A stretch of 29,768 nucleotides of DNA from a virus: the IMG/VR virus record IMGVR_UViG_3300049048_000041, positions 1 through 29,768 of that record; one strand, given 5' to 3'. The position numbers and the translations under genes are program-made. The notes beneath the pieces were generated by a model, which was not told the DNA's origin, searched no databases, and saw nothing but the letters and a program-made list of their open reading frames with translations. Shown here piece by piece: positions 2,182-28,603 of this stretch (positions are counted from its first letter, which is position 1; every line of letters begins with the position of its first letter).

Positions 2182-2196
2182 TTGAGAAAATCGCAA
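2182..2196 (+). promoter_or_regulatory. Near-palindromic 15-bp motif, copy A
   Basis: TTGAGAAAATCGCAA fits the inverted-repeat pattern TTGNG-N5-CNCAA. Related copies lie at 5074-5088, 18060-18074 and 28589-28603, all at gene boundaries. It overlaps the -35 box of a predicted promoter, a placement typical of a repressor or activator operator. The binding protein is unknown. Confidence 0.5.
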
Positions 2197-2210
2197 TAGT
2201 CCCCTATAGT
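2182..2210 (+). promoter_or_regulatory. Predicted sigma70 promoter for the 187-aa gene
   Basis: TTGAGA (2182-2187) and TATAGT (2205-2210) are separated by exactly 17 bases, in the only sizeable gap near the start of the early operon. The AT-rich spacer stands out against very GC-rich surroundings. The -35 box lies inside the near-palindrome at 2182-2196, so a protein binding there could block the promoter. Confidence 0.6.
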
Positions 2211-2232
2211 TCACCTTCACCCGGAGTCATCA

Positions 2233-2796
2233 ATGCACTTCCAACTGACCGGCGAAACCGCCGAGCTCAACCAGGCGGACGCCGCCTTCCTCCGCGGCAT
2301 CGCCCGCGTCATCGACGAGGCCACCGGCCCCAACGTCGGCCCGATCTCCACGACTTCTGCCGCTCCGGCAGTTGCCACGCCCCAGCCGCAGGTGGGCGAA
2401 AACAGCGGCACCACCGTCACGGTGTCTCCCTTGGCCGGGGGCGGTGGCGTGAGCGGGGCCGGCAGCACCGTCGAGGTGACGTCGGCCCCCGCTCCCGAGA
2501 AGAAGCGCGGGCCCGGTCGCCCGCCCAAGGCTGCGCCGGCTCCGGCCCCGACCGAGCCGCCCGCTCCCGGCCCCGTGCAGGAACCGGTTGCCGCCGGCCC
2601 GCAGCCCGAACCCAGCACCCCCAGTCCCGACGCCGCCCCGATGACGCTCGACCAGGTGCGCCTGGCGCTGCAGGAGTTCACCGGTGCCAAGGGCGTGGAC
2701 GCCGGCATCGAACTGCTCAAGGGCTTCGGCGCCAGCCGCATCAGCGAACTGAAGGCCGACGACTACGCTGCCTTCGCCGCCAAGTGCAGGGCATGA
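2233..2796 (+). CDS. Proline/alanine-rich phage protein with AT-hook motif
   Basis: Not assigned to a named family. Three parts are visible in 187 aa: an N-terminal segment of about 35 aa, a long low-complexity Pro/Ala/Gly linker (about 36-135), and a compact helical C-terminal domain from MTLDQVRLAL to AAKCRA (about 137-187). The linker holds KKRGPGRPPK, whose core GRP flanked by basic residues is an AT-hook, a minor-groove DNA-binding motif. The C-terminal domain (LLKGFGASRISELKADDY) resembles one I associate with small phage replication-region proteins of unknown function. The start follows a CGGAG ribosome binding site and a predicted promoter. It could be a DNA-bound accessory factor for the replication proteins; that is inference. 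Confidence 0.75.
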   Translation: MHFQLTGETAELNQADAAFLRGIARVIDEATGPNVGPISTTSAAPAVATPQPQVGENSGTTVTVSPLAGGGGVSGAGSTVEVTSAPAPEKKRGPGRPPKAAPAPAPTEPPAPGPVQEPVAAGPQPEPSTPSPDAAPMTLDQVRLALQEFTGAKGVDAGIELLKGFGASRISELKADDYAAFAAKCRA

Positions 2797-2900
2797 GCGG
2801 CGCCGACTTCCTGCTGGTGGCCACGATCATCTACGCTGCCGGCGTCGCCAGCGGCGTGGTGATCTGGGACGTGCTGTGCGCCAGGAGCAAGCCCGAATGA
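2793..2900 (+). CDS. 35-aa single-pass membrane peptide
   Basis: A 35-codon gene whose ATG overlaps the upstream stop as ATGA and whose own stop overlaps the next start as ATGA, so it sits in a translationally coupled chain. The product has one hydrophobic segment (FLLVATIIYAAGVASGVVIW, about 6-25) followed by a short basic tail (CARSKPE), which suggests an inner-membrane peptide with its N-terminus outside. No family recognised. Tiny membrane genes in early operons sometimes affect host physiology or superinfection, but nothing here shows which. Confidence 0.6.
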   Translation: MSGADFLLVATIIYAAGVASGVVIWDVLCARSKPE

Positions 2901-3370
2901 GCGCGCCCGCTGGCTTCCGCCCGATTCCCGGCTACCCTGCCTACTTCGTGAACGCGGACGGGGATGTGTTCAGCACGGTCAGCCACCGGGTCCTGAAGCC
3001 CTTGGCGTACACCAACGGGTACGTGGGCGTGAACCTGGGGCGCGGGCAGCGGCACCTAGTGCACCGGCTCGTCGCTTCGGCATTTCTCGACAACCCCGCA
3101 AGCAAGCCCCAGGTGAACCACTTGGATGGAAACCGGACCAACAACTGCCTGGCCAATTTGGAGTGGGTGACGTGTAGCGAAAATCACAAGCACTCTTACC
3201 GGGCCCTTCACCGCAAAGGCCACGCGCTGGCGCGGCCGGTGTTGGTCAACGGCCGCCGCTATTCCGATCAGAGCGAGGCGGCTCGCGCCATCGGGGTCCG
3301 GCCCGGGTCAGTGGCGTCGGCGGCGCTGCGCGGGCACAAGTGCAAGGGCATGGAGGTGCGTTATGTCTGA
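2897..3370 (+). CDS. NUMOD4/HNH homing-type endonuclease
   Basis: A free-standing HNH nuclease of the homing type, expected to make site-specific breaks in DNA lacking its gene and so spread itself between phages. The N-terminus is NUMOD4-like (FRPIPGYPAYFVNADGDVFS, about 7-26). The HNH core follows: HRLVA with H56, VNHLDGNRTNN (H75, N82-N83) and LEWVTCSENHKH (about 88-99). A NUMOD1-like DNA-binding helix (SDQSEAARAIGVRPGSVASA) lies near 125-144. I chose the ATG at 2897 (157 aa) because it overlaps the preceding stop as ATGA; an upstream in-frame start at 2876 would add seven residues. The next gene starts 8 bases before its stop, so it is embedded in the operon with no intron visible. Confidence 0.9.
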   Translation: MSAPAGFRPIPGYPAYFVNADGDVFSTVSHRVLKPLAYTNGYVGVNLGRGQRHLVHRLVASAFLDNPASKPQVNHLDGNRTNNCLANLEWVTCSENHKHSYRALHRKGHALARPVLVNGRRYSDQSEAARAIGVRPGSVASAALRGHKCKGMEVRYV

Positions 3371-4496: not shown

Positions 4497-4515
4497 AACC
4501 CTCTGGATCAATCAC

Positions 4516-5070
4516 ATGAGCGACAACATCCTCACCCCCGAGTTCCGTGCCGGCTTCGTCGGCTTGTTCAAGGCCAGCGCCCCCAAGGAAGACCCCAACG
4601 GCAAGAAGAAGTACAGCATCCGCGCGATCTTCATGCCCGGCGCCGACCTCACGCCGATGAAGAAGGAAGCCGAGGCGGCCGCCGTCGAGAAGTGGGGCGC
4701 CAACATCCCCAAGACCATGCGCAGCCCGTTCCGCAAGAACGAGGAACTGGAGAACCCGGTGCCCGGCATCCCCGATGACGCCATCGTGATGACGTTCTCC
4801 GCGAACGAGGACCGCCGCCCGGGCCTGGTGGACGCCAACCTGCAGGACATCATCGACGACGCCCAGGTCTACAGCGGCGCGTGGTTCCGCGCCCAGGTGC
4901 GCGCCTTCGCCTACGAGGCCAAGGGCAACAAGGGCGTGAGCTTCGGCCTGCAGAACGTCCAAAAGCTGCGCGACGACGAGCCGCTGGGCAAGGGCAAGGT
5001 GCCCGCCAGCAAGGCGTTCACCGCCGTGGAGGGCGCCGGCGGCAACTCCGCAGGATCCATCTTCGGCTGA
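4516..5070 (+). CDS. DUF2815 ssDNA-binding protein
   Basis: DUF2815 phage protein (184 aa), a family annotated as single-stranded DNA-binding and expected to coat ssDNA at the phage fork or during recombination. Typical features are an N-terminal FRAGFVGLFKASAPKEDPNG, KYSIRAIFMPGADLTPMKKE, a region rich in R and K around MRSPFRKNEE, and SGAWFRAQVRAFAYE with a conserved aromatic strand pattern. The C-terminus is low-complexity (GAGGNSAGSIFG), as often in SSB-like proteins, but lacks the acidic tip of bacterial SSB. The ATG at 4516 is 19 bases after the DUF2800 stop; a longer in-frame reading upstream is only a shadow of that gene. A hairpin follows directly. Confidence 0.88.
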   Translation: MSDNILTPEFRAGFVGLFKASAPKEDPNGKKKYSIRAIFMPGADLTPMKKEAEAAAVEKWGANIPKTMRSPFRKNEELENPVPGIPDDAIVMTFSANEDRRPGLVDANLQDIIDDAQVYSGAWFRAQVRAFAYEAKGNKGVSFGLQNVQKLRDDEPLGKGKVPASKAFTAVEGAGGNSAGSIFG

Positions 5071-5073
5071 GTG

Positions 5074-5088
5074 TTGCGTTTTTCTCAA
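5074..5088 (+). promoter_or_regulatory. Near-palindromic 15-bp motif, copy B
   Basis: TTGCGTTTTTCTCAA. Its reverse complement, TTGAGAAAAACGCAA, differs from copy A (2182-2196) at a single base. It sits four bases after the DUF2815 stop and just before a hairpin. Copies A and B also share flanking TG before and TAG after the core. Confidence 0.5.
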
Positions 5089-5089
5089 T

Positions 5090-5113
5090 AGCGCCCTACG
5101 GGGCGCTTCTTGT
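5090..5113 (+). terminator. Hairpin terminator or attenuator after the DUF2815 gene
   Basis: Perfect 7-bp stem AGCGCCC (5090-5096) / GGGCGCT (5101-5107) with a TACG tetraloop, followed by TCTTGT. The U-run is short, so termination may be partial. It would separate the ssDNA-binding gene from the polymerase operon and reduce readthrough. Confidence 0.5.
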
Positions 5114-5124
5114 CGGAGCACCAC

Positions 5125-5382
5125 ATGAAAAAAGTGATTGAGATCAAGCCGCTTCAGTTGATGGCGATTGTTCCCGAGGCCGGCTTCTACGACTACTGCG
5201 GCAGCCTGTACGTCGCGGCCACCCCCAACACCACCCCGATGTACGTCGGCGTCCTGTCGACGCTGCCGCTGCAGGAGTTCATCGAGTGCGTGCAGCCAGC
5301 TGGCGGCAACGTCAGCGAAGGCGCGCTGCTGCGTGCCATCGCCATCGCGCAACGTCCCGAGCTCGCAGCGCAGTTGGTGTGA
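5125..5382 (+). CDS. 85-aa phage protein upstream of DNA polymerase
   Basis: No family recognised. The ATG at 5125 follows a CGGAG ribosome binding site at good spacing, right after the hairpin. The product begins basic (MKKVIEIKP), is otherwise mixed alpha/beta in character (GFYDYCGSLYVAAT, MYVGVLSTLPLQEFIE) and has no signal peptide, membrane segment or cysteine cluster. The last codons overlap the polymerase start as GTGA, so the polymerase is likely translated by coupling to this gene. This position, fixed to the polymerase, suggests a small replication accessory role, but no motif proves it. Confidence 0.7.
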   Translation: MKKVIEIKPLQLMAIVPEAGFYDYCGSLYVAATPNTTPMYVGVLSTLPLQEFIECVQPAGGNVSEGALLRAIAIAQRPELAAQLV

Positions 5383-7481
5383 CCGAACTCCACATCGACT
5401 TCGAGACGTTCAGCGCCTGCGAACTGCGCGACGCGGGGCTGGACAACTACGCGAAGCACCCGACGACTGGCGTGCACTGCATGGCGTGGACGATGGGCGA
5501 CGAGCCGGTCGACGTGTGGACGCCCGCTGACGGCCGCACATTCTCGATGCGGGAGGTGGTGTTCAAGCACATCGCCGCTGGCGGCACCGTCGTCGCCCAC
5601 AACGCCGCATTCGAGTGGGCGATCTGGAACCACGTCTGCGTGCCCAAGTACGGCTGGCCGCCGCTTCGCATCGAGCAGATGCGCTGCACCATGGCCCAGG
5701 CGTACGCCATGGCCCTGCCCGGGGCGCTGGAGAAGCTGGCCCCGGCGCTGGGCATCGAGCAGCAGAAGGACATGGCCGGCGCCCGCGTGATGATGCAGCT
5801 GGCCAAGCCGAAGCTGGACGGTTCGTTCTGGACGCCGGCCGACGACCCCGACAAGTTCGCCAAGCTGTACGCCTACTGCAAGCAGGACGTGGTGGTCGAG
5901 CGCGAAGCCGACCGCCGGATGATGCGCCTGTCCGACGCCGAGCAGCGCCTGTGGACCATCGACCAGCGCATCAATCAGCGCGGCATCCAGGTGGACCTGG
6001 CCGCGATCGACGCTGCCATCGCCCTGGTGGAGTCCGAGAAGGCGCGGCTGAACGCCGAGATTCTGAAGGCAACTGGGGGCGTGGTCGGGAGCGCGACCGA
6101 GGTGCAGCTGCTGGTCAAGTGGATCCGCCAGTTCGTCGAGATCAAGGGGCTGGCCAAGGCCGACGTGCTGGACGCGCTGAAGGTGGACGACATGCCGCCG
6201 GCCGTGCGCCGCGCACTGCAGCTGCGCCAGGAGGCAGCCAAGTCCTCCACCGCCAAGCTGGTGGCCATGAAGCAGCGCGCATCCAGCGACGGGCGGGTGC
6301 GCGGCACCAAGCAGTACCACGGCGCTGGCACCGGCCGCTGGGCTGGGCGCGGCATGCAGACCGACAACTTCCCGCGGGGAAACCTCAAGCCCCACGAGGT
6401 GCAGGACGTGCTGAACCAGCTGCTGCGCGCGGGCAACGCGATGCAGCGCAAGATCGCCACCACCTACATCGACATGATGTACGGCCCGCCGATGGATGTC
6501 ATGGCGTCGTGCCTGCGCGGGATGATCACGGCCACCCCGGGCAACGAGCTGGTGGCCTGCGACTTCTCCAACATCGAAGGCCGCGTGCTGGCGTGGCTGG
6601 CGGGCGAAGAGTGGAAGCTGCAGGCCTTCCGCGACTACGACAAGCGCACCGGGCCGGACCTGTACCTGGTCACGGCAGGGAAGATCTACCACCGCGAGCC
6701 CACCGAGTTCACCAAGACATCGCCCGAGCGTGAGGTCGGCAAGCGCTGCGAATTGGCCTTCGGCTTCGGTGGCGGGCTGGGCGCATGGCGCAAATTCGAG
6801 ACGTACGCCACCGCGGACTACGTGCCATTCAAGGACGAGAGCGTACACGAGATCAAGAACGCCTGGCGCGACGCGCACCCCAAGCTGACCCGGTACTGGC
6901 ACGACCTGGAGAGTGCAGCCCTCAACGCAGTCGACTACCCCGGCACGCCATGCAAGGCCGGCGCCGCCGACAGGCTGGTCACGTTTAAGAAGGCAGGCTC
7001 CTTCCTGTGGTGTCGCCTGCCGAGCGGCCGCGTGCTCTGCTACCCGTACGCGCGCATCGACTCTTCGCACACCATGGTCAACACCAAGACTGGCGCGCGG
7101 AAGGTGGTGTCGGGCAATTCGATGGCCACCAACCCTCTCGGGCTCGACTGGCGGCAGGAGCGCAGCAGCGATCGCGTGCTGTGGTTCTGGGGCGTGAACG
7201 GCGTGACCAACAAGTGGGAAGAGATGAGCACGTACGGTGGCTCGCTCGCGGAGAACGTCACGCAGGCAGTAGCGCGCGACGTCCTGGCCGAAGCGATCGT
7301 GCGGCTGGATGACGCGGGCCACCAGGTGGTGATGCACGTCCACGACGAAGTTGTGTGCGAGGTGCCCGCTGGCGTCTCGCGTGTTGAGGAAATCGAAACA
7401 CTCATGTGCCAACTGCCTGCATGGGCGGCTGGTCTGCCCGTGGCTGCCGAGGGGTGGCAGGGCTTCCGCTACCGCAAGTGA
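5379..7481 (+). CDS. Family A DNA polymerase with 3'-5' exonuclease domain
   Basis: Replicative T7/PolI-type DNA polymerase (700 aa). Exonuclease motifs come first: Exo I IDFETFS with D7 and E9, Exo II VVAHNAAFEW (about 69-78), Exo III YCKQDVVVE (about 165-173). Polymerase motifs follow: A, CDFSNIEGR with the metal-binding Asp (about 394-402); B, KRCELAFGFGGG (about 453-464); C, HVHDEV (about 653-658). The start is a GTG at 5379 that overlaps the preceding stop as GTGA; it places Exo I at residue 6, as expected. The much earlier in-frame ATG at 5286 runs through the 85-aa gene and is rejected. There is no 5'-nuclease domain, which is usual for phage enzymes. It should work with the primase-helicase encoded downstream. 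Confidence 0.96.
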   Translation: MTELHIDFETFSACELRDAGLDNYAKHPTTGVHCMAWTMGDEPVDVWTPADGRTFSMREVVFKHIAAGGTVVAHNAAFEWAIWNHVCVPKYGWPPLRIEQMRCTMAQAYAMALPGALEKLAPALGIEQQKDMAGARVMMQLAKPKLDGSFWTPADDPDKFAKLYAYCKQDVVVEREADRRMMRLSDAEQRLWTIDQRINQRGIQVDLAAIDAAIALVESEKARLNAEILKATGGVVGSATEVQLLVKWIRQFVEIKGLAKADVLDALKVDDMPPAVRRALQLRQEAAKSSTAKLVAMKQRASSDGRVRGTKQYHGAGTGRWAGRGMQTDNFPRGNLKPHEVQDVLNQLLRAGNAMQRKIATTYIDMMYGPPMDVMASCLRGMITATPGNELVACDFSNIEGRVLAWLAGEEWKLQAFRDYDKRTGPDLYLVTAGKIYHREPTEFTKTSPEREVGKRCELAFGFGGGLGAWRKFETYATADYVPFKDESVHEIKNAWRDAHPKLTRYWHDLESAALNAVDYPGTPCKAGAADRLVTFKKAGSFLWCRLPSGRVLCYPYARIDSSHTMVNTKTGARKVVSGNSMATNPLGLDWRQERSSDRVLWFWGVNGVTNKWEEMSTYGGSLAENVTQAVARDVLAEAIVRLDDAGHQVVMHVHDEVVCEVPAGVSRVEEIETLMCQLPAWAAGLPVAAEGWQGFRYRK

Positions 7482-7490
7482 GGTGAACGC

Positions 7491-10106: not shown

Positions 10107-10331
10107 ATGGCCAACCAACGAACGATTGAGTTTGTCTATGAACTGCCCGGCGGGCTGCCGCTGGCGGTGCAGGTGGACCTGGCCGAAGAGAGCGGCCGCG
10201 TGATGCGCTGCTTCGGGCCCAACGGCTACCCGCTGGACACCGACGCCATCTGGATCGACACGGGAAACGTGGACGTGGGGCTGATGCCCCTGACCTTCAT
10301 CTTGAAACAGGAAGCAGGAGAGCGCGCATGA
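10107..10331 (+). CDS. 74-aa phage protein
   Basis: No family recognised. Starts two bases after the primase-helicase stop with GAGGA as ribosome binding site, and its last bases overlap the next start as ATGA. The sequence looks like a small beta-rich domain (TIEFVYELPGGLPLAVQVDL, then DAIWIDTGNVDVGLMPLTFI) with no cysteines, signal or membrane segment. The coupled position suggests it is made in step with the neighbouring excisionase-like protein. Confidence 0.7.
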   Translation: MANQRTIEFVYELPGGLPLAVQVDLAEESGRVMRCFGPNGYPLDTDAIWIDTGNVDVGLMPLTFILKQEAGERA

Positions 10332-10549
10332 CGCAAGAGACGGAACAGGTCCAGCAGGACGACGAGGTGCACCTGACCACCAAGGAGGTGGCCAAGCGCC
10401 TGCGGCTGAACGTGGTGACGCTGGCCAACTGGCGCGTCCAGGGCAAGGGCCCCATGTTCATCAAGGCGGGCCGGCGCGTGCTGTACCCGATCGACCAGCT
10501 GCAGGTGTGGGAGAAAGGCCAGCTGCGGCAGAACACGGCGGTGGCGTGA
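10328..10549 (+). CDS. Excisionase-like HTH DNA-binding protein (HTH_17/MerR-like)
   Basis: Small DNA-binding protein (73 aa) with a MerR/excisionase-type winged helix: LTTKEVAKRLRLNVVTLANW (about 16-35), then a wing KAGRRVLYPIDQLQVWEKGQ. Family members act as recombination directionality factors (Xis) or small regulators. It lies about 1.2 kb from the integrase with only the radical SAM gene and attachment region between, so it is the best Xis candidate in the window. It could instead regulate the operon or recognise the palindromic motif. It starts by ATGA overlap and its stop overlaps the radical SAM start as GTGA. Confidence 0.82.
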   Translation: MTQETEQVQQDDEVHLTTKEVAKRLRLNVVTLANWRVQGKGPMFIKAGRRVLYPIDQLQVWEKGQLRQNTAVA

Positions 10550-11505
10550 GGGTTCGGCTCACCCAGATTGACGGCGCCCTGCCGAATCTGGCGCTGATGA
10601 AACTGTCCCACTGGCATCGGTCCCGGGGCGATGAAGTCGTCTACACCCGCGAGATCCGCCGCGGGTCGGGGGAACCGGTCTACGACCGCGTGTACGGGTC
10701 TGCCATCTTCCAGTTCAGTCAGCTGCAGTTGATGCAATTCCAGCGCGAATGGCCAGGAGCCATCGTCGGCGGCACGGGCACCCCGTCCACGCAGACGGTC
10801 GAAGAGTTGATCGGTGCCGAGCACGAGCATTACGACTACGCAGACCAGGGGGTGGATTACTCCATCGGATTCACGCAGCGCGGCTGCCGCCTGAGTTGTG
10901 GCTTCTGCGTCGTCCCGACGAAGGAGGGGAAGCCCCGGTCCGCCAACACGATCGAGCAAATCTGGCGTGGCGCCGGCCACCCGAAGAAGCTGCACCTGCT
11001 GGACAACGACTTTTTCGGCAACCCCGAGTGGCGATCGCGCATCGAAGAAATCCGCCAGGGCAAGTTCCGCGTGTGCATGTCGCAAGGCATCAACGTGCGC
11101 CTGATTAACGAAGAGGCGGCCGCAGCCCTGGCGACCATCGAATACCGCGACACCAAGTTCGAGCGCCGGCGGCTATACACCGCGTGGGACAACCTCAAGA
11201 ACGAGCGCGTGTTCTTTCGCGGCGTGGACATGCTGGAGAAGGCGGGCGTTCCTGCACACCATCTGATGGCCTACATGCTGGTGGGCTACGACCCGGATGA
11301 AACCTGGCCGCGGATCTGGCACCGCTTCTATCGGATGGTCGAGCGGGGCATCCGCCCGTACCCCATGGTGTACGACCGCAAGCGCACCGACCTCAAGGTG
11401 TTTCAGCGGTGGGTGATTCGGGGCCTGTATCGCATTGCCCCATGGTCGGAATACCAGCACGCGGCACGCGATTCGGTGTCCACGGAGGCGTTCATCCTGT
11501 CCTGA
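10546..11505 (+). CDS. Radical SAM protein with B12-binding-like N-terminus
   Basis: Radical SAM superfamily protein (319 aa). The 4Fe-4S motif CX3CX2C is clear: C114, C118 and C121 in GCRLSCGFCVVP. The N-terminus (LTQIDGALPNLALMKLSHWH, then GDEVVY) resembles the Rossmann-like cobalamin-binding domain seen in many radical SAM enzymes, but lacks the DxHxxG cobalamin ligand motif. A GGTGTP loop (75-80) and LLDNDFFGNPEW after the cluster fit a TIM-barrel core. I recall related proteins in phage and bacterial genomes with no known substrate. A GTG at 10546 overlaps the previous stop as GTGA; the earlier ATG at 10507 lies inside the HTH gene. Superfamily is firm, reaction unknown. Nucleic-acid, nucleotide or cofactor modification is possible. 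Confidence 0.9.
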   Translation: MRVRLTQIDGALPNLALMKLSHWHRSRGDEVVYTREIRRGSGEPVYDRVYGSAIFQFSQLQLMQFQREWPGAIVGGTGTPSTQTVEELIGAEHEHYDYADQGVDYSIGFTQRGCRLSCGFCVVPTKEGKPRSANTIEQIWRGAGHPKKLHLLDNDFFGNPEWRSRIEEIRQGKFRVCMSQGINVRLINEEAAAALATIEYRDTKFERRRLYTAWDNLKNERVFFRGVDMLEKAGVPAHHLMAYMLVGYDPDETWPRIWHRFYRMVERGIRPYPMVYDRKRTDLKVFQRWVIRGLYRIAPWSEYQHAARDSVSTEAFILS

Positions 11506-11741: not shown

Positions 11742-12857
11742 ATGACCAGCAGAGAACTCACCGAACGCGCCATCAAGGACACCCAGCCCGGCGACGTGCT
11801 GCGCGATCGCATCGTGCCCGGCCTGCACCTGCGCGCCTTCCCCCAGTCCAAAGCCTTCTACCTGTACTTCCGCACCAAGGCCGGCGTGCAGCGCAAGCCC
11901 AAGCTGGGCGAGCACGGCGCCATCACGCTGGTGCAGGCACGTGCCGTGGCGCGCGAGATGCTGGTGGAGGTGGCCGCCGGCCGCGACCCGTCCCAGAAGC
12001 GCCAGGACGATCGGGCCGAGCTCTCCGTCGAGGATCTGTGGAACGAATACTGGAAGCGGCACGGCAGCAAGAAGAAGTCCAGCGTCGACGACAAGGGCCT
12101 GTGGAACCGCTACCTGAAGAGCAGGTTCAGTAGGCAAAAGCTATCGGCCGTTGGCTACAAGCAGGTGGCCGACATGATGGACGCGCTGAAGGCCACGCCG
12201 ATCGCCGCCAACCGGGCGCTGGCCCTGCTGTCCAAGATGTTCAACTTCGCCCACCGCCCGCTGCAGCTGGTGGTGCAGAACCCGTGCAAGGGCGTGGCGC
12301 GCTACCCGGAGAACAAGCGCCGCCGGTACATGAAGGGCGACGAGCCGGCCAAGATCGCCACGCTGCTGGACGCCGTGGCCGACAAGGAGCCGGCCGGCGT
12401 CGCCTTCATCTACCTCCTGATCCTGACCGGCGCGCGGTGCGGCGAGATCGCCGCGGCCCGCTGGACCTGGCTGCACGGCAACGCGCTGCACCTGCCCGAC
12501 TCCAAGACCGGCGAGAAGCAGGTGTACCTGCCGCCCCAGGCGATGGACGTCATCGGGCGCCTGAAGCGCACCAACGGCACCATCGTCGGGATCAAGAGCC
12601 CGAAGAAGCTGTGGGACCGCGTGCGCCGCGAGGCCGGCTGCCCTGACCTTCGGCTGCACGATCTGCGCCACTCCTTCGCCAGCGCCGCCATCTCAGCAGG
12701 GTTTTCCCTCGCGCAGATTGGCGAGCTCCTGGGGCACAAGAACACCCAGACCACGCAGCGGTACGCGCACCTGGTTGAAGAAGCGGCGCTCGCCGCATCG
12801 ACGGCGACAGCAGACGTGCTGTTCGCCGCAATGAAGAAAACGCCGGCCGCGGCGTGA
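11742..12857 (+). CDS. int: Tyrosine recombinase integrase (DUF4102 N-terminal arm domain)
   Basis: Site-specific integrase (371 aa) for insertion into and excision from the host tRNA-Asn gene. The N-terminus (LTERAIKDTQPGDVLRD, LHLRAFPQSKAFYLYFR) is the DUF4102-type arm DNA-binding domain, followed by a core-binding SAM-like domain (about 85-190) and the catalytic domain. Catalytic residues are all present: R232 (TGARCGE), H306 and R309 (HDLRHS), H332 (LGHKN) and the nucleophile Y341 (QRYAHL). The ATG at 11742 has only a weak ribosome binding site (CCAGG), consistent with low expression. The adjacent tRNA-Asn fragment is the matching attachment core. Its stop overlaps a possible GTG (12854) of the lipoprotein frame, so readthrough into that gene is likely. 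Confidence 0.96.
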   Translation: MTSRELTERAIKDTQPGDVLRDRIVPGLHLRAFPQSKAFYLYFRTKAGVQRKPKLGEHGAITLVQARAVAREMLVEVAAGRDPSQKRQDDRAELSVEDLWNEYWKRHGSKKKSSVDDKGLWNRYLKSRFSRQKLSAVGYKQVADMMDALKATPIAANRALALLSKMFNFAHRPLQLVVQNPCKGVARYPENKRRRYMKGDEPAKIATLLDAVADKEPAGVAFIYLLILTGARCGEIAAARWTWLHGNALHLPDSKTGEKQVYLPPQAMDVIGRLKRTNGTIVGIKSPKKLWDRVRREAGCPDLRLHDLRHSFASAAISAGFSLAQIGELLGHKNTQTTQRYAHLVEEAALAASTATADVLFAAMKKTPAAA

Positions 12858-13549: not shown

Positions 13550-13689
13550 CGCGCGTCCCAGGCGAAGCCGCAGTTGGCCAAGCCGTAGCAGACGAAGGCG
13601 AAGGCCATGCCCGGCCTGTTCTGCCGGGCGTAGTCCAGCGCCACCCACCAGTAGATGGCGCCCGTGACCAGCAGGAGCGGGACGCTCAC
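13546..13689 (-). CDS. 47-aa two-helix membrane protein
   Basis: Last gene of the late operon. A GTG at 13689 overlaps the metallophosphoesterase stop as GTGA; a start at 13779 would lie inside that gene and is rejected. The product has two hydrophobic segments (VPLLLVTGAIYWWVALDYA and GMAFAFVCYGLANCGFAW) joined by a short charged turn (RQNRP), so both ends should face the same side of the inner membrane. No family recognised. Its TAG stop overlaps the lipoprotein's TAA stop on the other strand, and no terminator is visible between them. It could be an accessory holin or an exclusion factor. Confidence 0.6.
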   Translation of the reverse strand: MSVPLLLVTGAIYWWVALDYARQNRPGMAFAFVCYGLANCGFAWDAR

Positions 13690-14870: not shown

Positions 14871-14871
14871 G

Positions 14872-16919: not shown

Positions 16920-18047
16920 CTAGACCGCGATCTCTTCGACAACGAGAGTTGCAGCCGAGACACCGCCGAACAGACGCGCCGAGTCGAGGCCGTTCATTCG
17001 CATGGTGTACGCCCCCACGGGGCCAACGCGCACAGTGAACGTCAGCGCAGTGGTGACGCCAGGGACGTACTCCCATTCGCAATCGATCTGCCTTGCGTTA
17101 TTGGCTGTCGCCTCTGCGATGGTCGCCGCCAGCGCGTTCGCCGACGCGCTCGAAAACACGGCCGCAACGCCGGACCCTCCAGATGTCAGTGCGAACTGGC
17201 CGCGAAACCGCAGTCGCACCCGACTCGACGCCGACGTCGGCGTCAGGGTCACGGAGATGATCTCGGTGCCCTCCGTGTTCTGGGGGATGGTGTCGTCCGC
17301 AGGGATGACGGTCGTTAGGTCCGCGTTGGTGGCGTAACTGCCGAAGGCGCGATTAACAAGTGCTGCTGTGAAGCCGAGATTTGCCCGCCCAGTCGCGCCG
17401 GTTGCTGCGGCACCGATTGCAGTGCGCGCAGCGGCCGCATCCGTGGCGGTGAACACGGCACCGCCCACGCTGGTTGCCCCGAACGCCGTGCGCCCCAGCG
17501 CCAGCGTGCCGGCCTGCACCACCGGCGCCATGGCGGCCGACACCAGCCCGTCCGCCGTGTCCGGCTCGTAGTTCACCAGCGACAGCGCATCGGAGCTCCA
17601 GCCGATCAGCGTGCTGGCCTCGGGCGTCGGCAGTTCGGCGCTCACGCCGGTGCTGTTGGCCGAGAGCGTCAGCGCGCGGTCGATCTGCTCCTGCAGCTGC
17701 TGGTCGCGCATGACGCCCAAGTCCAGCGCCGCCTCGTGCGTCTCGGCCGGGAAGGGGTCGTTCTCCACGTAATCGGTCAGCTGCGTCAGCGGCACGTTGC
17801 GCAGGATGGAGATGCGCTGGTCCGCGGTCGGGGCGGTCACGGCGGTGATCGAGCCGCCAACCGACACGCCCTCCCCCGTCACCGTGTAGTCGGTGGTCAG
17901 CGCCAGCGTTGTCACCACGCCGGTGCTGATCTGGGTGCGCAGCACCTGGATGTGCGTCTCGTCCGTGAAGTAGAAAGGCACCGTGAACGAAGTGGTCGCT
18001 CCGTTGCCCGTGTAGTCTGCGCGCAGGGTTGTGGTGCTGACGGTCAT
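16920..18047 (-). CDS. Tail fibre protein with T7-like N-terminal domain
   Basis: Receptor-binding fibre (375 aa). The N-terminus (TTTLRADYTGNGATTSFTVP, YFTDETHIQVLR, YTVTGEGVSVGG, RISILRNVPLTQLTDY, FPAETHEAALD) is the T7 gp17-like domain that attaches the fibre to the tail, ending in a helix (MRDQQLQEQIDRALTL). A repetitive Ala/Gly/Thr shaft (about 150-240) follows, and a C-terminal beta-rich part (about 250-375) probably contacts the host. It is short for a T7-type fibre. It has an SD (AGAGG) and its own predicted promoter, separated from the upstream 1100-aa gene by 51 bases. No chaperone gene is seen next to it; the 90-aa neighbour might contribute. Confidence 0.9.
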   Translation of the reverse strand: MTVSTTTLRADYTGNGATTSFTVPFYFTDETHIQVLRTQISTGVVTTLALTTDYTVTGEGVSVGGSITAVTAPTADQRISILRNVPLTQLTDYVENDPFPAETHEAALDLGVMRDQQLQEQIDRALTLSANSTGVSAELPTPEASTLIGWSSDALSLVNYEPDTADGLVSAAMAPVVQAGTLALGRTAFGATSVGGAVFTATDAAAARTAIGAAATGATGRANLGFTAALVNRAFGSYATNADLTTVIPADDTIPQNTEGTEIISVTLTPTSASSRVRLRFRGQFALTSGGSGVAAVFSSASANALAATIAEATANNARQIDCEWEYVPGVTTALTFTVRVGPVGAYTMRMNGLDSARLFGGVSAATLVVEEIAV

Positions 18048-18059: not shown

Positions 18060-18074
18060 TTGTGATTATCTCAA
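18060..18074 (-). promoter_or_regulatory. Near-palindromic 15-bp motif, copy C
   Basis: On the minus strand TTGAGATAATCACAA, 12 of 15 bases as in copy A (2182-2196), again with TG in front. It covers the -10 box of the predicted tail fibre promoter, about 13 bases before the fibre start codon. Confidence 0.5.
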
Positions 18075-18098: not shown

Positions 18099-21000
18099 CT
18101 ACTTGGTTTGCGCCATGCGGCGCCTGAGTTCGGCCGCGATCCGCTCGGACTCGCGCTGCAGCTGCTCCGGCCCCACCGCGGCAGCGCGTCCGGCCACCCT
18201 TGCCTTCTCGAACACCTGCTGCATCGCCGCGCGCTGGGCGGTGTCGGGCATGTTGTCCCATGTCGGGGAGTTCACCAGGTCGGTCAGGACCCGGTACGCG
18301 AGGCGCCCCGACTCGCTGGCGAACACGTCCTGTTGCTCGGGGGTGAGCTCCACCTTCCCCAGCTTCGAGTCTCGCCCGGCCGGCAACTCGATGCTGTCGG
18401 GCGCCTTGGCCACGCCCACCTCGAGGCGGGCGGCTTCCGCGCGCACCTTGTCGCCGGACTGCACCGACTGGGTGATCGGCGTGACCATGCCCATGCGGTC
18501 CTTGGCCAGGATCGGCTCGCCGTAGGCGTCTCGCTTGGGGTACAAGTCCTCGCGCAGCCCAGGGATGCGGGCGCGCACCGCGTCCATCACCGAATCGACC
18601 TCGCGCTGGTACGGGTCCATCATCTGCGCCGGCTGCGCGACGATCGCCGGCACGGCGCTGCCGGCCATGCTCTGCACGAACTTGGGGCCGAAGCGGCTGG
18701 GGTCGCTGAGCGCGTTGACGATGTTGGCGATGCCCTGCAGGAACGTCTGATTCGTGACCGCGTTGGCGAAGGCGGTGGACAGGATCTTCGGAATCTTGTC
18801 GCTCTCGTCGGGGGTCAGGTTGTCCCAGACGCTGGCCATGTCGGCGGCCATGCCCATCAGGGTGCCCACCGGCTGCAGGCGCTGGTAGCTGTACCAGGTG
18901 TCCCCCACCTTGACGGAGTACGGCTGCCAGCCGGCGGCCATGGCCACCGCGCGCTTCTTGGGATCCGGGTCGCCGGCGCCGGAGATGTGGCCGGACAGGG
19001 CGAAGGCGAACACCGCGGTGCCCACGCTCGTGCCCACCACCATCTCCGCGATCGCCTGGTCGCGCGCCGCGCCGCCCTTGGCGAAGGCTTCGCGCCACTC
19101 CCCGATGATGGGCGCGGCGGGCGTCAGGCGCACCATCTCCTTGAACACGTTGGCCGGCGTCTGCACGAAGGGCACCGCCCACTCCAGGTGCAGCTTGCGG
19201 ATGACCGCCTGCACCGCCTGGCCCTTTTCGCCCAGCGGCATGTTGAAAGTGAAGCGGGCGCCGGCGGCATCCACCGCCTGCTCCATCTTGACGCTCGGGT
19301 TGGCGGCCAGTTCCAGCACGCGCTCGCGGAACTCGCGGGTGGCCGGATTGAAGCCCTCCTTGACCGCCTCGCGGGACGCCAGGGCGTACATCTCACCGCG
19401 CTCGTTGGTGACACGGAAGAAGGCGTCGGCGGTGGACAGCAGGCGGAACGGCACCCGGATCACCTCGCCGGCCACGCCCTCGATCGAGTTTCGCCGCTGC
19501 TCGGCCTTGGCGCTGATCTCGCCGGTGCGCAGGACGGCCATGGCCGCCTTCGAGCCGTCGATCACGCCATGGATATTGCCCAGCACGCGGGCCAGCGGCT
19601 CCACTGCGGTGACGCGATCGGGGCCCGAGCGGGCGAAGCTGACGGCCGCGGCCACCGTGTCCACCAGCGGGCGCGTGGCCATGAAGGTGGCGTTGCCCAT
19701 GATGTTGGCCAGCTGGGTGAAGGGGCCGGACACCAGGCCCGCCTTCCACGCCTCGACCACCTTGTCCCATGTGGTGGCGCGCGATGCGCGCTCAGCGAAG
19801 GCCAGCGCCTCGCGCGGGCTGCCCAGGTCGCCCATCATGTCGACCATCTTGTCGAAGTTCACGCCACCATTGGGGCTGTCGGGCGTGGCGAACCGGTCGG
19901 AGATGAGCTTGTTCAGGTCGTCGAAGTACGCCTTGTCCCGGTTCGTGGACTTCAGGATGTTCAGGGCCCGGCCCACCTCGGCCTGCGCGCCGCGCGTGGT
20001 GGCGTGCGCCGTGGCCACGCGCTCGATCTGCGCGAGCAGCTGCGCCTGCATCTCCGGGGTGGCGCGGCCCTCGGCCTTGGCCGCCACGTAGTCGTTGCGC
20101 AGCGCCATCAACTGCTCGGCGCCGGAGATGAGCAACTGCTTCTGCGCATAGATGTCGGCCGCCAGCTTCTGGTAGTTGGCGCCCGTGGGGGCGTCCGGCA
20201 GCTTGGTGCCGGTGGACTGCTCGAAGAGCGTGCGCGCCTCCAGGTACGTCTGCTCCCACGGCACGGTGCCGCGCTTGGCCTCCAGGATGCGCGCTTCGTA
20301 CAGGCCCGAGAGGCGCGACAGCGCGCCTGCCACGTCCGCCGACGAGTTCAGGTAGTTGTAGTTGACGTGCGTGGACAGCACCGGCTCGCCCGGCAGCTGC
20401 GGCACGTCCGCGAACGGGCGCTCCACGAAAGCGCGGGCCGCCTGCGGCGACGGATCAGGCACGGCGTCCCGGGCGTTCTCGGCGCGGGCGGCTTCCCGGT
20501 ACGCCCGGGGAATCTCCGGGGCGCCGAACAGGTCCATCTGGTCCGGCCGCTGCAGATCCTCCACGATGGTGGGGTCCCGCTTGGCCTCGGCCGCCACCTC
20601 GAGCGGGTCCTTGCCGGTGCGCGCGTACACCTCGCGCAGCTTGGCCGCGCCCACCTGGGCACCCTTCAGGCCCACCAGCAGGATGGCCGTGTTCAGGAAG
20701 TCCTCGGGCTCGGGCATGCGGCCCTCGAGCGCCGCCGGCGTGACCACCAGGGCGCCGAACTCGGCCCCCAGCTTCACGCCTTCGGTGCCCGCCCGCGCGC
20801 CGCCGGCCGTCATCGTGCCGGCCATGACTTTGCCGCCCAGCATCGGCGCGGCCACCACTTCGGCGGCCCGGCCAGCGCCGGCCGTCACCGCGCCGATCAG
20901 CGCTTCCTTGCCGGTGGCCTTGAGCACGATGCTTGCGCGGTCCAGGAAGTCCGCGCTGCTGGTGATGTCGCCGCGGGAGAGGGCCTGGATGTAGGACTGG

Positions 21001-21401
21001 CGGATGGCGGCCGGCAGGGCGAACGCGCCCGCGCCCCCGCCCAGCGTCGCGCCCAGGGCGCTGCCCACCACCGGGACGGCACTGCCAGCCGCGCCGCCGG
21101 CGGCCGCGCCGCCAAGCACGCCGACGATCGACTGCGGAATCTCGGCCGCCATCTGCGTGCCGGCCTGCACCAGCTTCTCGTACCAGGTGGCGTGGTGCGG
21201 ATCCAGCTGCACGTCCGGCAGCTTGTTGCGCAGCATCAGGCCGGTGGCCGAACCTTGGAACCCCGCCGCCGCGGCGTCCGCGACGCCGCTGCCGGTGCGC
21301 GGCGCAGGTGCCGTCGCCCCGATCTGCTGGAACATCGACCACGGGCCGTCACCGCCGGCCGGGGCCTGCGCCTGCTGGTAGAGCTCCCAGGGCCCGCTCA
21401 T
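18099..21401 (-). CDS. Large internal virion / DNA ejection protein
   Basis: At 1100 aa the largest gene here, in the position of T7 gp16 (last core protein before the fibre). It probably is packed in the virion and ejected with DNA to form part of a channel. The N-terminus has two short repeats, GPWELYQQ (3-10) and GPWSMFQQ (19-26). A glycine-zipper membrane-active region follows (about 92-130, LGGAAAGGAAGSAVPVVGSA), with more Gly/Ala-rich helices to about 250. The remainder is long, charged, mostly helical sequence (for example ERVATAHATTRGAQAEVGRA). No catalytic motif was recognised. It starts by ATGA overlap with the transglycosylase gene. Role is inferred from size, composition and synteny. 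Confidence 0.82.
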   Translation of the reverse strand: MSGPWELYQQAQAPAGGDGPWSMFQQIGATAPAPRTGSGVADAAAAGFQGSATGLMLRNKLPDVQLDPHHATWYEKLVQAGTQMAAEIPQSIVGVLGGAAAGGAAGSAVPVVGSALGATLGGGAGAFALPAAIRQSYIQALSRGDITSSADFLDRASIVLKATGKEALIGAVTAGAGRAAEVVAAPMLGGKVMAGTMTAGGARAGTEGVKLGAEFGALVVTPAALEGRMPEPEDFLNTAILLVGLKGAQVGAAKLREVYARTGKDPLEVAAEAKRDPTIVEDLQRPDQMDLFGAPEIPRAYREAARAENARDAVPDPSPQAARAFVERPFADVPQLPGEPVLSTHVNYNYLNSSADVAGALSRLSGLYEARILEAKRGTVPWEQTYLEARTLFEQSTGTKLPDAPTGANYQKLAADIYAQKQLLISGAEQLMALRNDYVAAKAEGRATPEMQAQLLAQIERVATAHATTRGAQAEVGRALNILKSTNRDKAYFDDLNKLISDRFATPDSPNGGVNFDKMVDMMGDLGSPREALAFAERASRATTWDKVVEAWKAGLVSGPFTQLANIMGNATFMATRPLVDTVAAAVSFARSGPDRVTAVEPLARVLGNIHGVIDGSKAAMAVLRTGEISAKAEQRRNSIEGVAGEVIRVPFRLLSTADAFFRVTNERGEMYALASREAVKEGFNPATREFRERVLELAANPSVKMEQAVDAAGARFTFNMPLGEKGQAVQAVIRKLHLEWAVPFVQTPANVFKEMVRLTPAAPIIGEWREAFAKGGAARDQAIAEMVVGTSVGTAVFAFALSGHISGAGDPDPKKRAVAMAAGWQPYSVKVGDTWYSYQRLQPVGTLMGMAADMASVWDNLTPDESDKIPKILSTAFANAVTNQTFLQGIANIVNALSDPSRFGPKFVQSMAGSAVPAIVAQPAQMMDPYQREVDSVMDAVRARIPGLREDLYPKRDAYGEPILAKDRMGMVTPITQSVQSGDKVRAEAARLEVGVAKAPDSIELPAGRDSKLGKVELTPEQQDVFASESGRLAYRVLTDLVNSPTWDNMPDTAQRAAMQQVFEKARVAGRAAAVGPEQLQRESERIAAELRRRMAQTK

Positions 21402-23554
21402 TGGACCTTCCCGGTGGCCACGCGGCTACCCGTGACCGGCTCCCAGTTGCCCTGTGACTTCGGATCGCCGCCCTTGAACCGGTACAGCTTGCCGTCCTTG
21501 CCGGGCATCTCGGCGCCCGGCTGCAGCTGCTGTGTGGCCGCGTCCGCCGCTTGCTTGGCCACCGACTGCCGGCTGTTGCCCATGAACGCCTGGATGCGCT
21601 CGGGCTTCAGGAGGTAGTCGCGCGACATAGGATCCAGCAGCACGCGCGGATCCTTGTTCTCCTTGCGCAGCCGCTCGATCTGCTGCTCCATGTCGGCGTT
21701 GAACCGGTAGGCGGCGTCGGCAGCCACCTCGGGCTGGACCTGGCCGATGATGCTGCGGGTGAGCGCCGTGTAGACCACCTCGCGCGCCCGCTGCACGTCC
21801 TTCTGGAACCCGCCGGTGCTGCCGTCGCGCAGCTGCTCGACCTCCCTGCGCAGCCCCAGCATCTCCGGCGTCGAGATGTCGCCGTCCCGGTACGCCTGCA
21901 TCACCGGGTCCATGTTGTAGGTCTTGGTCGGGTCGCCGTCAGCCGCGTGGATCTGCAGCATGAGCTCGCGCACCTTGCCCGGGTTCGTGCGGGGCTCGGC
22001 CTGGGCCGACATCTCCCGCTCGCGCCGCATCATGTAGTCGATCGCGTGCTGCTTCTGCTGCCAGTCCAGCGTGTTGTCGGCCAGGATCTCGCGCTCGGAC
22101 AGTGCGCCGCCGGCGCCCTTGGGGTCGACGATGCGCGCCAGAAACGTGTTCATCACCCCGTCCTGCGCCTGCTTCTTGGCGCGCTCGGCGGCGATGCGGG
22201 ACCGCTCGCTCTCGCTGTCGTAGGCGCGCTGGTACTGCTCTGCCTCGGTGACGATGGCGAAGAACTTGTCGGCCGGCAGGCTGTCGATGAAGCCGATGCC
22301 CGTGCTGGGCTTCTTCCACTCCTGGGACTGGCCGGTCTGCTCGGCCGCCGGCGCCTTGAACGCTTCGGGCGGCACCTGCGACCCCAGGCCCGCCACCTGG
22401 CGCGCGGCCGCCAGGTTGGCGGCGTACTGGCGGGTGTTCGGGCCCCATGCGGTGCCGCCCTCCCCGCCGTAGTACATCATGTCCACCTTGGCCATGTCGC
22501 CATCGGCCTTGGTGCGGTACTGCGCCACCAGCTTGGCCGCCCCGAAGATCGCGTCCTTGGGGTTGTTGGCGTCCACGCCCAGCTGCTTGGCCATGGCCGG
22601 GACCATCTGCATGATCCCCTGCGCGCCCTGGCTGCTCTGCGCCGTGGGGTTCAGGCCGCTCTCGGCCACCGCGCGCAGCTTCAGGTCGCGCCAATCCAGG
22701 TTGTAGAGCGCGGCCGCATCCTTGAAGTGCTGGTCGTACTGGCTGGGCATGTTCACCGTCTTGACCAGCGAATCCAGCCGCGGCTGGTCGTAGGGCTTGA
22801 CGATCGGGGCCTTCAGGTCCGGCGGCAGCCCGGGGCGCGGCTGCTCGGCAACCACCGCCTTGACGCTCTCGCGCAGCTGCTGCGGCACCGTGCCCAGCAC
22901 CGCGTTCGGGTAGCGGCGGGCGAACCCCTTGGCCGCATCGAACTTGATCTGCTCGGCAATCGACTGCTTGAACGCCTCGCGCGCCGTGGACGGCACCCGC
23001 CCGAAGCGCCCGGCCGGGTCGTCGATCGCGGCGGTGGCCTGCTTGATCAGGCTCTCCCACTGCGTGTGGTCCTGGATGGCAACGCTGCCCAAGGTGCTGG
23101 ACAGGGTGTTGAACTGGTTTTTCGCCGCTTCGCCGGCCAGACGGCCCTGCACACCCACCGCCTCCTGGCCGTACATCGCGGTCATGTCGGCCGACATACG
23201 GGCGAAGGTGTCCTGCCCGCGGCGCGTCTTGAACTCGGCGCCCAGCTTGTCGAAGCGCTGGCGCATGTCGTCCATCAGCTTCGGCGCGAACGTGTCGTCG
23301 CCCGGCTGCGCGTTGTTCGTGCGGTTGGTCAGTTCCTGCTGCCAGGCAGCGCGCTCCTTGGCCATGGCGACGTGCACGTTGGTCACGTCGTCGGCCACCT
23401 CCTGCTGGTGCAGCACGTCCCCGAACTGGCCGACCGCAGCGCCCAGGCCCTGCAGCGCGTCGCCCACCTGGGCCCCGAAGTCGGCACCCGTGGCGCGCAC
23501 GTTCAGCTGCCCTTGGGCAGCCACGTTGTCGTCGTAGATTTTGATTTCCGGCAT
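21398..23554 (-). CDS. Virion-associated lytic transglycosylase (SLT domain)
   Basis: Internal virion protein (718 aa) with an SLT/lysozyme-like domain at about 275-395, used to cut a local hole in the cell wall during DNA entry. Typical motifs: AVAESGLNP with the catalytic Glu at 298, SSQGAQGIMQMVP (about 307-319), and MMYYGGEGGTAWG later in the domain. The flanks are long alpha-helical segments (about 30-240 and 430-700), as in T7-type ejection proteins. Here the enzyme domain is central, not N-terminal as in T7 gp16. It starts two bases after the preceding stop and overlaps the 1100-aa gene start as ATGA. Confidence 0.92.
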   Translation of the reverse strand: MPEIKIYDDNVAAQGQLNVRATGADFGAQVGDALQGLGAAVGQFGDVLHQQEVADDVTNVHVAMAKERAAWQQELTNRTNNAQPGDDTFAPKLMDDMRQRFDKLGAEFKTRRGQDTFARMSADMTAMYGQEAVGVQGRLAGEAAKNQFNTLSSTLGSVAIQDHTQWESLIKQATAAIDDPAGRFGRVPSTAREAFKQSIAEQIKFDAAKGFARRYPNAVLGTVPQQLRESVKAVVAEQPRPGLPPDLKAPIVKPYDQPRLDSLVKTVNMPSQYDQHFKDAAALYNLDWRDLKLRAVAESGLNPTAQSSQGAQGIMQMVPAMAKQLGVDANNPKDAIFGAAKLVAQYRTKADGDMAKVDMMYYGGEGGTAWGPNTRQYAANLAAARQVAGLGSQVPPEAFKAPAAEQTGQSQEWKKPSTGIGFIDSLPADKFFAIVTEAEQYQRAYDSESERSRIAAERAKKQAQDGVMNTFLARIVDPKGAGGALSEREILADNTLDWQQKQHAIDYMMRREREMSAQAEPRTNPGKVRELMLQIHAADGDPTKTYNMDPVMQAYRDGDISTPEMLGLRREVEQLRDGSTGGFQKDVQRAREVVYTALTRSIIGQVQPEVAADAAYRFNADMEQQIERLRKENKDPRVLLDPMSRDYLLKPERIQAFMGNSRQSVAKQAADAATQQLQPGAEMPGKDGKLYRFKGGDPKSQGNWEPVTGSRVATGKVQ

Positions 23555-23557
23555 AGG

Positions 23558-24496: not shown

Positions 24497-24497
24497 C

Positions 24498-26567: not shown

Positions 26568-26568
26568 G

Positions 26569-27132: not shown

Positions 27133-27151
27133 TGGTCCTGTTCAGGACGAC

Positions 27152-27181
27152 GAGACGGGCCCCCGCGAAGGGGCCCGTCTC
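27152..27181. terminator. Strong GC hairpin between capsid and tail genes
   Basis: Perfect 12-bp stem GAGACGGGCCCC (27152-27163) / GGGGCCCGTCTC (27170-27181), loop CGCGAA, eight bases downstream of the cement protein stop. There is no U-run on the minus strand, so it may act as partial terminator, RNA 3'-end stabiliser or processing site rather than a full intrinsic terminator. Confidence 0.6.
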
Positions 27182-27188
27182 AGGCCGG

Positions 27189-27635
27189 TCAGGGCATGGA
27201 GTAGTACAGGTCCACCACCAGGGTGCCGGACGACGGAGCCGTCGCGGCAGCCAGGGTGATGATCACCGTCTCTTCAGCCGACAGGGCCGACGCGGCGCCA
27301 GCCGTCGCGGTCTTGCCGAACAGGGTCGGCGTGTCCGTGGCGGTGAAGGCGGCTGCGGCCCGGTACTTGGCGGTGGAGCCGGAGATGCCGATCGCCAGCG
27401 TGGTCGAACCCGAGCTCGTGTCGGCATTCAGCACGCCGAACGCGAAGGTCGCGCCGGCGGGCAGCGTGCCCACGGTCAGGGTGTCGCTGGTGGTCTGCGA
27501 CGCGTACGTGAACGTCGCGCGCATGCGACGCAGGCGGGCGCCGTAGACGGTCGCCACCGGCTTGTAGCCGACAGCGGCCGAAGTGGACAGGCCCGTGGTG
27601 GTGCCGGCCAGTTCGTTGGAGAGGTAGGCTGCCAT
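27189..27635 (-). CDS. Probable capsid cement / decoration protein
   Basis: A 148-aa protein directly downstream of the capsid gene, rich in Thr, Ala, Gly and Ser with a regular beta-strand pattern (ATFTYASQTTSDTLTVGTLP, TTLAIGISGSTAKYRAAAAF, ETVIITLAAATAPSSGTLVV) and no charged core, as expected for a jelly-roll head decoration protein. Bordetella phage BPP-1 has a cement protein of similar size next to its capsid protein; I use that only as a parallel. It has a strong ribosome binding site (AAGGAG). A hairpin follows its stop, which may raise its amount relative to tail proteins. Confidence 0.72.
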   Translation of the reverse strand: MAAYLSNELAGTTTGLSTSAAVGYKPVATVYGARLRRMRATFTYASQTTSDTLTVGTLPAGATFAFGVLNADTSSGSTTLAIGISGSTAKYRAAAAFTATDTPTLFGKTATAGAASALSAEETVIITLAAATAPSSGTLVVDLYYSMP

Positions 27636-27647
27636 GTCGTCGGCTCC

Positions 27648-28589
27648 TTACTTGCAGTTGATGATCACGCAGCGCTTTTCTTCCGTGCGCGCGCCGCCGA
27701 AGGTGCCGGTGACGTAGACCTGGGTGGAATTGCGCTTGTCGGCGCGCTTCGAGATGTCGGTCTTGACGTCGTTCCACACGCCCAGGGCCACGCCGGACTT
27801 GGCGAAGCACGGCACCATCCAGCGCGAGCCGGTGACGTACGAGCCGTCGCTGTCGGCGGACGAGAGGCCCGTGTTGATCGCCGTGTTGAAGCTGGCCGCG
27901 CCCGGGATCCGCTCGGAGAGGATGAAGTTGAACCCCATGAACGAGGTGATCTTCCCGTCGACCAGGACCGGCCGGGTGTTGTAGTCCAGGCTGATCGCGG
28001 TCGTCTCGCCCAGCAGGTCGTCGTGCTGCTTGGCCGAGATGACGCAGTACAGCTGCTCGTTGTCGACGTCCACTTCGGAGGCCAGCAGGATCCGCTTGGC
28101 CGAGCGCAGCTTGGCGACGGTCAGGCCGGTGGCCGCGGCGGCGACGGACTGGCTGTTGCTGTTGAAGGCATACAGCGTGCCGGTCGCGCTCGAGCCGTTC
28201 TCGCCGGTGTTGTTGCTGCCGAAGAAGCCGGCGATGATCTCGTCGTCCATCGCGCGACCCATCGCCATGGCGCCAGCCATCGCGTACGGGCCGGTCGGGT
28301 CGACCAGCATGCGCAGCTTGTCCTGGTCGTCGATCAGGTCGGCCCAGTCGTAGTCGTTGGGGTAGATCCAGCGCTTGTCGTGCGGCGTGCTGATCAGCGG
28401 GGTGTCGCTGTGGCGGGACTGGTTGCGCACCGGCGTGACGGAGCCGAACTGCTCGAGCATCGAGGCAGCCTTGCCCACGAAGCTCTGGTTCATCACGGCG
28501 TTGCGCAGCTTGGAACCACGCTGCTGGAGCAGCATGGAGACGTTCGTGCTGTACTGCTGCACGAACGCGGTATTGACTTGGGTGCTCAT
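27648..28589 (-). CDS. Major capsid protein
   Basis: Main head protein (313 aa). The N-terminal helical part (TQVNTAFVQQYSTNVSMLLQ, QRGSKLRNAVMNQSFVGKAA), then PVRNQSRHSDTPLISTPHDK, DYDWADLIDDQDKLRMLVDP, YAMAGAMAMGRAMDDEII, GFFGSNNTGENGS, and a C-terminal GITSFMGFNFI-like turn match phage capsid families seen in podoviruses with HK97-type heads. There is no sign of a protease domain. It follows the scaffold gene and a 78-aa gene, as expected for a head module, and is preceded by a good SD (GAGGA). The family is clear; exact fold variant is not. Confidence 0.88.
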   Translation of the reverse strand: MSTQVNTAFVQQYSTNVSMLLQQRGSKLRNAVMNQSFVGKAASMLEQFGSVTPVRNQSRHSDTPLISTPHDKRWIYPNDYDWADLIDDQDKLRMLVDPTGPYAMAGAMAMGRAMDDEIIAGFFGSNNTGENGSSATGTLYAFNSNSQSVAAAATGLTVAKLRSAKRILLASEVDVDNEQLYCVISAKQHDDLLGETTAISLDYNTRPVLVDGKITSFMGFNFILSERIPGAASFNTAINTGLSSADSDGSYVTGSRWMVPCFAKSGVALGVWNDVKTDISKRADKRNSTQVYVTGTFGGARTEEKRCVIINCK

Positions 28590-28603
28590 TGTGAAATCCT
28601 CAA
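28589..28603 (-). promoter_or_regulatory. Motif copy D at the capsid ribosome binding site
   Basis: On the minus strand TTGAGGATTTCACAA, ending at the first base of the capsid start codon. It fits the TTGAG-N5-CNCAA pattern but also contains the GAGGA ribosome binding site, so similarity to the other copies may be chance. Confidence 0.3.

Follow-up and report, generated by a model that had tools for sequence, protein, structure and literature searches.

Candidate operators of a lambda CI-like repressor dispersed over both arms of a temperate podovirus genome

Background

IMG/VR virus record IMGVR_UViG_3300049048_000041, a 29,768-bp fragment of a podovirus genome that was analysed over its whole length (hereafter the window), carries a near-palindromic 15-bp motif, TTGAG-N5-CNCAA, in both its early and its late arm, and this raises the question of whether the copies are operators of a single regulator. 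The phage is held to be temperate because the window encodes an integrase, and a first-pass annotation, made from the letters of the window, had read four copies of the motif as an operator set for one regulator that could coordinate lysogeny or the early/late switch. The capsid protein is of the family found in the HTVC010P pelagiphages and Vibrio phages; for the regulation of this podovirus group we found no description in the open-access literature searched. Based on sequence comparison with related viral contigs we propose that the sites are very probably the dispersed operators of one phage-encoded lambda CI-like repressor, and that they overlap promoters in both arms of the genome.

A symmetric site recurs at syntenic places in related phages

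The four 15-bp copies reported by the first-pass annotation were all recovered at their positions and on their strands, against 0.29 expected from dinucleotide shuffles (0 of 100 shuffles gave four). Relaxation of the pattern to its true-dyad form, TTGNG-N5-CNCAA (TTGNGNNNNNCNCAA), yields five matches in the window against 0.50 expected, and the fifth copy surfaces only with this fully symmetric pattern. When read along the neighbouring genes, all five copies conform to TGTTGNGNNNNTCNCAA. Candidate operator A (TTGAGAAAATCGCAA, 2182-2196, + strand) lies in the gap between the DNA helicase gene and gp2233, 36 bp 5' of the gp2233 start codon as placed by the simple caller from which all gene starts were taken, while candidate operator B (TTGCGTTTTTCTCAA, 5074-5088, + strand) is found 3 bp past the gene for a single-stranded DNA-binding/annealing protein (ssb). 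In the late arm, candidate operator C (TTGAGATAATCACAA, 18060-18074, - strand) stands 12 bp 5' of the start codon of the tail-fibre gene, site D (TTGAGGATTTCACAA, 28589-28603, - strand) overlaps the ribosome binding site and extends one base into the capsid start codon, and the additional copy, candidate operator E (TTGTGGAAATCGCAA, 28836-28850, - strand), is positioned ~250 bp 5' of the capsid gene. Four of the nine gaps of at least 25 bp hold a site (2182, 5074, 18060 and 28589), and the earlier statement that the sites lie at gene boundaries holds for these four, D reaching into the capsid start codon; it does not extend to E, which the incomplete pattern had missed and which sits within a small gene (28702-28938, - strand, 78 aa) and not in a gap.

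Searches with the capsid gene recovered 80 related viral loci, and longer stretches of ~30 of these records were fetched and their genes called. A symmetric matrix built from 18 sites has as its consensus the 19-bp dyad YGTTGCGATWATCGCAACR, which recurs at syntenic places across the ~30 related contigs. With near-duplicates removed, the gaps of these relatives contain 79 sites (of which 63 did not enter the matrix) against 0.7 expected under a second-order Markov model of gaps, and coding DNA contains 43 against 7; the pattern is thus not equally frequent inside genes. The helicase/gp2233 gap is occupied in the window and in six further records (G001, G007, G009, G021, G029 and G034), and at a lower score in G033; every relative examined that has this pair of genes carries a site at the junction. 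The gap between ssb and the DNA polymerase gene (polA) is occupied in the window, G001 and G021, with weaker sites at the same place in G007 and G009 and nearby in G032 and G034, while the gap between the internal virion protein and the tail fibre holds a site in the window, G001, G010, G015, G018, G020, G025, G029, G032 and G033. A further conserved place lies ~200-260 bp 5' of the capsid gene, and a later, independent search with the helicase gave 15 further loci (~7 distinct sequences), all of which have a site within 3-20 bp of the end of the helicase gene. Conservation among relatives therefore covers A and B in the early arm and C and E in the late arm, bearing out the claim that the set spans both, and does not cover D.

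Three other, weaker matches in the window (3175, 7384 and 15884) were dropped as chance-like and unsupported among the relatives; the match at the end of polA falls at another residue than in G032 and G033.

The sites are phased with sigma-70-type promoters

Orienting each site to its downstream gene, we observed TAnnnT exactly 17 bp from TTGNNN in 14 of 89 sites, compared with six at 16 bp and three at 18 bp, the background being 0.23 per offset. The composite TTGNNN-N17-TANNNT matches only twice in the whole window, both times at a site. At A, the TTG of the dyad forms the -35 box of TTGAGA-N17-TATAGT, with TATAGT at 2205-2210 (+ strand) as the -10 box; at E (28822-28850), the dyad supplies the -35 box of TTGTGG-N17-TACGAT, and the -10 box TACGAT (28822-28827, - strand) falls within coding sequence. 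The earlier statement that two of the four original sites overlap a promoter box is right for 2182, and the only other composite match in the window belongs to the missed copy at 28836. From this placement of the dyad over the -35 box and spacer we infer an arrangement that would fit occlusion of RNA polymerase, not activation.

Sites close to start codons mostly have no downstream -10 box. On the sense strand their centre base is A in 16 and T in 3 of 19 distinct sites, a modest bias (p=0.004), and the strand tends toward GATAAT or GAAAAT; C itself includes TGAGATAAT, an extended -10-like element. This gives a modest hint that at such sites the dyad might itself contain an extended -10. Pairing of a -10 within the dyad with a -35 box at 17 bp was considered as well and rejected, being found in only 4 of 41 cases.

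Some sites have no -10 box, and one site is followed by a terminator. This is B, which lies immediately 5' of the terminator-like hairpin AGCGCCC-UACG-GGGCGCU (5090-5107, + strand; -15.1 kcal/mol, z -4.05). A terminator hairpin directly follows the ssb/polA dyad in the window, G021 and G001, and repressor-assisted termination is possible at this place.

Selection on the DNA of a site inside a gene

The position of E within a coding sequence permits the DNA and the protein to be weighed separately. All 13 distinct sequences of the capsid-upstream site keep GTT or ATT at its first codon and GCA (once TCA) at its fifth, even though, in the window's genes, GTT encodes 4% of the valines and GCA 8% of the alanines. 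The last base of the -10 box is T in 11 of the 13, and the residue encoded there varies. The joint probability of the kept codons is 2e-21 when computed as if the sequences were unrelated by ancestry; the direction is clear, and the codon pattern points to selection on the DNA sequence itself. Conservation of the protein alone was rejected as the cause of the fixed place of E, because rare synonymous codons are retained.

A CI-like repressor with a divergent Cro-like partner

Near divergent gaps the relatives encode a protein of 142-211 codons with a Cro/C1-type helix-turn-helix (HTH) domain (PF01381). A profile of this CI homologue finds lambda repressor as its best match among solved structures. 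In its predicted structure (pLDDT, the predicted local distance difference test, 82) five helices form the N-terminal domain, and the C-terminal domain is of the lambda/LexA type, most similar to the C-terminal fragment of lambda repressor, 2ho0 (Z 10.1, 112 residues, 3.0 A). Both domains match lambda CI by fold, and the top-ranked entries in Foldseek are the lambda-186 hybrid and lambda repressor itself. Inspection by eye only of the CI alignment (A1) revealed no clear Ala-Gly cleavage site and no clear Ser of the Ser-Lys pair.

In many relatives the CI homologue is divergent from a gene weakly similar to P22 Cro, and the dyad is present in the gap between the two in most relatives with both genes: G001, G010, G029, G033, G032, L158/L160, L163, L164/L165 and L168-L170. 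This gap usually holds one dyad and at most two or three weak ones; three clustered operators per control region, as in lambda, were not seen. Furthermore, near-complete records that carry CI have 3-10 sites scoring at least 14, mostly in gaps and of one binding-site sequence, against 0-4 in those where CI was not found (one-sided p=0.002). Taken with the syntenic gaps and the sigma-70 phasing, the occupation of the CI-cro gap and the scarcity or absence of sites in relatives lacking the repressor support the proposal of the first-pass annotation that one regulator of lysogeny uses the set, and CI probably shares the dyads with its divergent Cro-like partner.

The pair in L160 lies ~3 kb before the helicase gene and the window begins 783 bp before its own; because of this placement, the repressor gene of the window's phage is probably located just past the left end of the fragment, and we infer that a repressor of the same kind acts there. 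Two other candidates for the regulator were discarded. The HTH protein encoded at 10328-10549, which had been named earlier for binding assays, is excisionase-like, probably an excisionase, and not a likely binder, and orf168/187, which adjoins sites, proved to be a small terminase. In G032 (38686-39249), G033 (30998-31504) and G007 (20930-21436) one or two dyads precede a small terminase gene of the Sf6 type, which the window lacks.

Other readings of the sites

The rival that survives best, which we nonetheless regard as unlikely, is that the dyads are bound by another phage regulator, such as the Cro-like protein or a late activator, and that CI uses a second, 13-bp palindrome, TGTTACNGTAACA. 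We counted 15 copies of this palindrome where three control palindromes gave none, and most of the copies fall in the immunity region (L160:4836-4947, L160:5405, G001:2139, G007:24022, G009:65 and L158:264), with four copies spaced ~33 bp apart just beyond the CI gene of L160. Its two halves, set apart by a 1-bp spacer, are similar to the half-sites of the 19-bp dyad. The switch has, then, another element, and some CI-cro gaps are without a good 19-bp dyad. Against this rival, the dyad is centred near -28, over the -35 box and spacer, and activators usually bind near -42; moreover, dyad count tracks the presence of CI, and W01 (near-complete) and G028 (a fragment), in which a Cro-like gene but no CI was found, have no dyad scoring at least 14.

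That the dyads are sites of a host transcription factor exploited by the phages appears very improbable. A host factor could likewise overlap sigma-70 promoters; however, the same dyad is kept by phages ranging from 48 to 68% G+C, whose hosts presumably differ, and it lies in the phages' own CI-cro gap, and relatives without CI have few copies of it. Chance, in the form of AT-rich gaps inflating TTG...CAA words in a GC-rich phage, might explain D and the three dropped matches, but as an account of the whole set it is already refuted by the excess over the Markov model of gaps, the conserved places and the constraint on synonymous codons, and we give it next to no weight. That the dyads work at the RNA level, forming small hairpins or marking where transcripts are processed, is equally far-fetched: one site does adjoin a terminator hairpin, but dyad positions 4 and 12 are unpaired in most window copies, and on the DNA the dyad keeps register with promoter boxes.

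Several observations weigh against the assignment of the dyads to a CI-like repressor. TGTTACNGTAACA could be the actual site of CI or Cro, and the CI-cro gaps of G034 and G007/G009 have no good dyad. G021 has four sites and no CI was found in it, in a record that may be incomplete, and the repressor gene is likewise absent from the window, itself a fragment. D has no match at the corresponding place in any relative and is possibly a chance match or a weak site; the first-pass annotation had already rated it the weaker for containing a ribosome binding site, and E is better supported. Promoter occlusion cannot account for all sites, as several are without a recognisable -10 box. Finally, the relatives share ancestry, and the site counts overstate their independence.

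A proposed mechanism for lysogenic control

In the reading we prefer, that of dispersed operators of a CI-like repressor, a repressor dimer would bind the dyad YGTTGCGATWATCGCAACR and, because in promoters of the sigma-70 type (TTGNNN-N17-TANNNT) the dyad lies over the -35 box and the spacer, the bound protein would shut out RNA polymerase. Promoters of the early arm (the helicase/gp2233 and ssb/polA regions) and of the late arm (capsid and tail fibre) would then be silenced directly in the lysogen, and induction would free all site-bearing promoters together. Where no -10 box lies downstream, as at 5074 by the terminator and 18060 near a start codon, the repressor might block an extended -10 within the dyad or stop an elongating polymerase. 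A more tentative suggestion, to which we would give somewhat less than an even chance, is that in a lambda-type CI/Cro system one symmetric operator has been fused to separate sigma-70 promoters in two registers (-35 or extended -10), also within coding sequence 5' of the capsid gene, such that early and late genes alike answer directly to a single repressor, without a late activator or a phage RNA polymerase.

Such a circuit would provide the operator sequence, promoters and repressor family for the control of lysogeny in a broad podovirus group sharing this capsid family. It predicts which phages share immunity and how late genes might be silenced without a step like that of lambda Q, and it marks candidate internal promoters in uncultivated phages, one of them inside a gene.

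Gene content of the window

A gene map based on codon usage assigns 97% of the window to coding sequence. The rightward genes include those for the helicase (784-2166, phrog_62), gp2233 (2233-2796, no assigned function, 3' of operator A), an exonuclease, the single-stranded DNA-binding/annealing protein (4516-5070, phrog_112), the DNA polymerase (5379-7481, phrog_17), a primase, the excisionase-like HTH_17 protein (10328-10549, phrog_66) and a tyrosine integrase (11742-12857, phrog_1), all named coordinates being on the + strand. A gene for a radical-SAM protein (10546-11505) lies between the excisionase-like gene and the integrase. The leftward genes encode lysis, tail, internal virion and capsid proteins and a product in the scaffold position, and include the tail fibre/tail protein (16920-18047, - strand, phrog_1640), 3' of C, and the major capsid protein (27648-28589, - strand, phrog_3437), 3' of D and E. 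The stretch 13686-15294, where the late arm ends, carries genes for a DNA repair exonuclease (phrog_704) and for a peptidase-like protein of the HslV family. A related 41.9-kb phage (L090) forms a separate contig of the isolate genome of Ensifer adhaerens ST2 (NZ_PNFP01000031.1), a possible cultured source.

Comparison with known systems

Phage P1 has 22 C1 operators (PMC8546580), and the candidate operators described here resemble them in being numerous, in their spread across the genome and in probably serving a single lysogeny repressor; the P1 operators are 17 bp long and asymmetric (ATTGCTCTAATAAATTT), whereas those of the present phages are 19-bp dyads associated with a predicted lambda CI-type repressor and a Cro-like partner. 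In L5-type (cluster A) mycobacteriophages, stoperators for the repressor occur genome-wide, both within promoters and in short gaps between genes (PMC9283540), and the present sites share this placement. The L5 sites, however, are 13-bp, asymmetric and orientation-dependent, and their repressor binds as a monomer that has a special second domain, in contrast to symmetric, often promoter-phased dyads and a repressor with a predicted C-terminal fold of the lambda/LexA type. A CI with an HTH and a lambda/LexA-type C-terminal domain, a divergent cro and dyads overlapping promoters are features shared with lambda CI/Cro at OR and OL and with phage 186 CI. In lambda the operators are clustered at two early promoters and the late genes are controlled through Q, whereas here single dyads stand at many promoters, those of capsid and tail genes included. 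Conserved inverted-repeat repressor sites are also dispersed over the genome of the Streptomyces phage phiC31, although phage, repressor and sequence are unrelated. Dispersed operators of a lysogeny repressor are already known as a kind from P1 and L5; the present set differs from these in its symmetric site, the lambda-type repressor to which we attribute it and its phasing with promoters.

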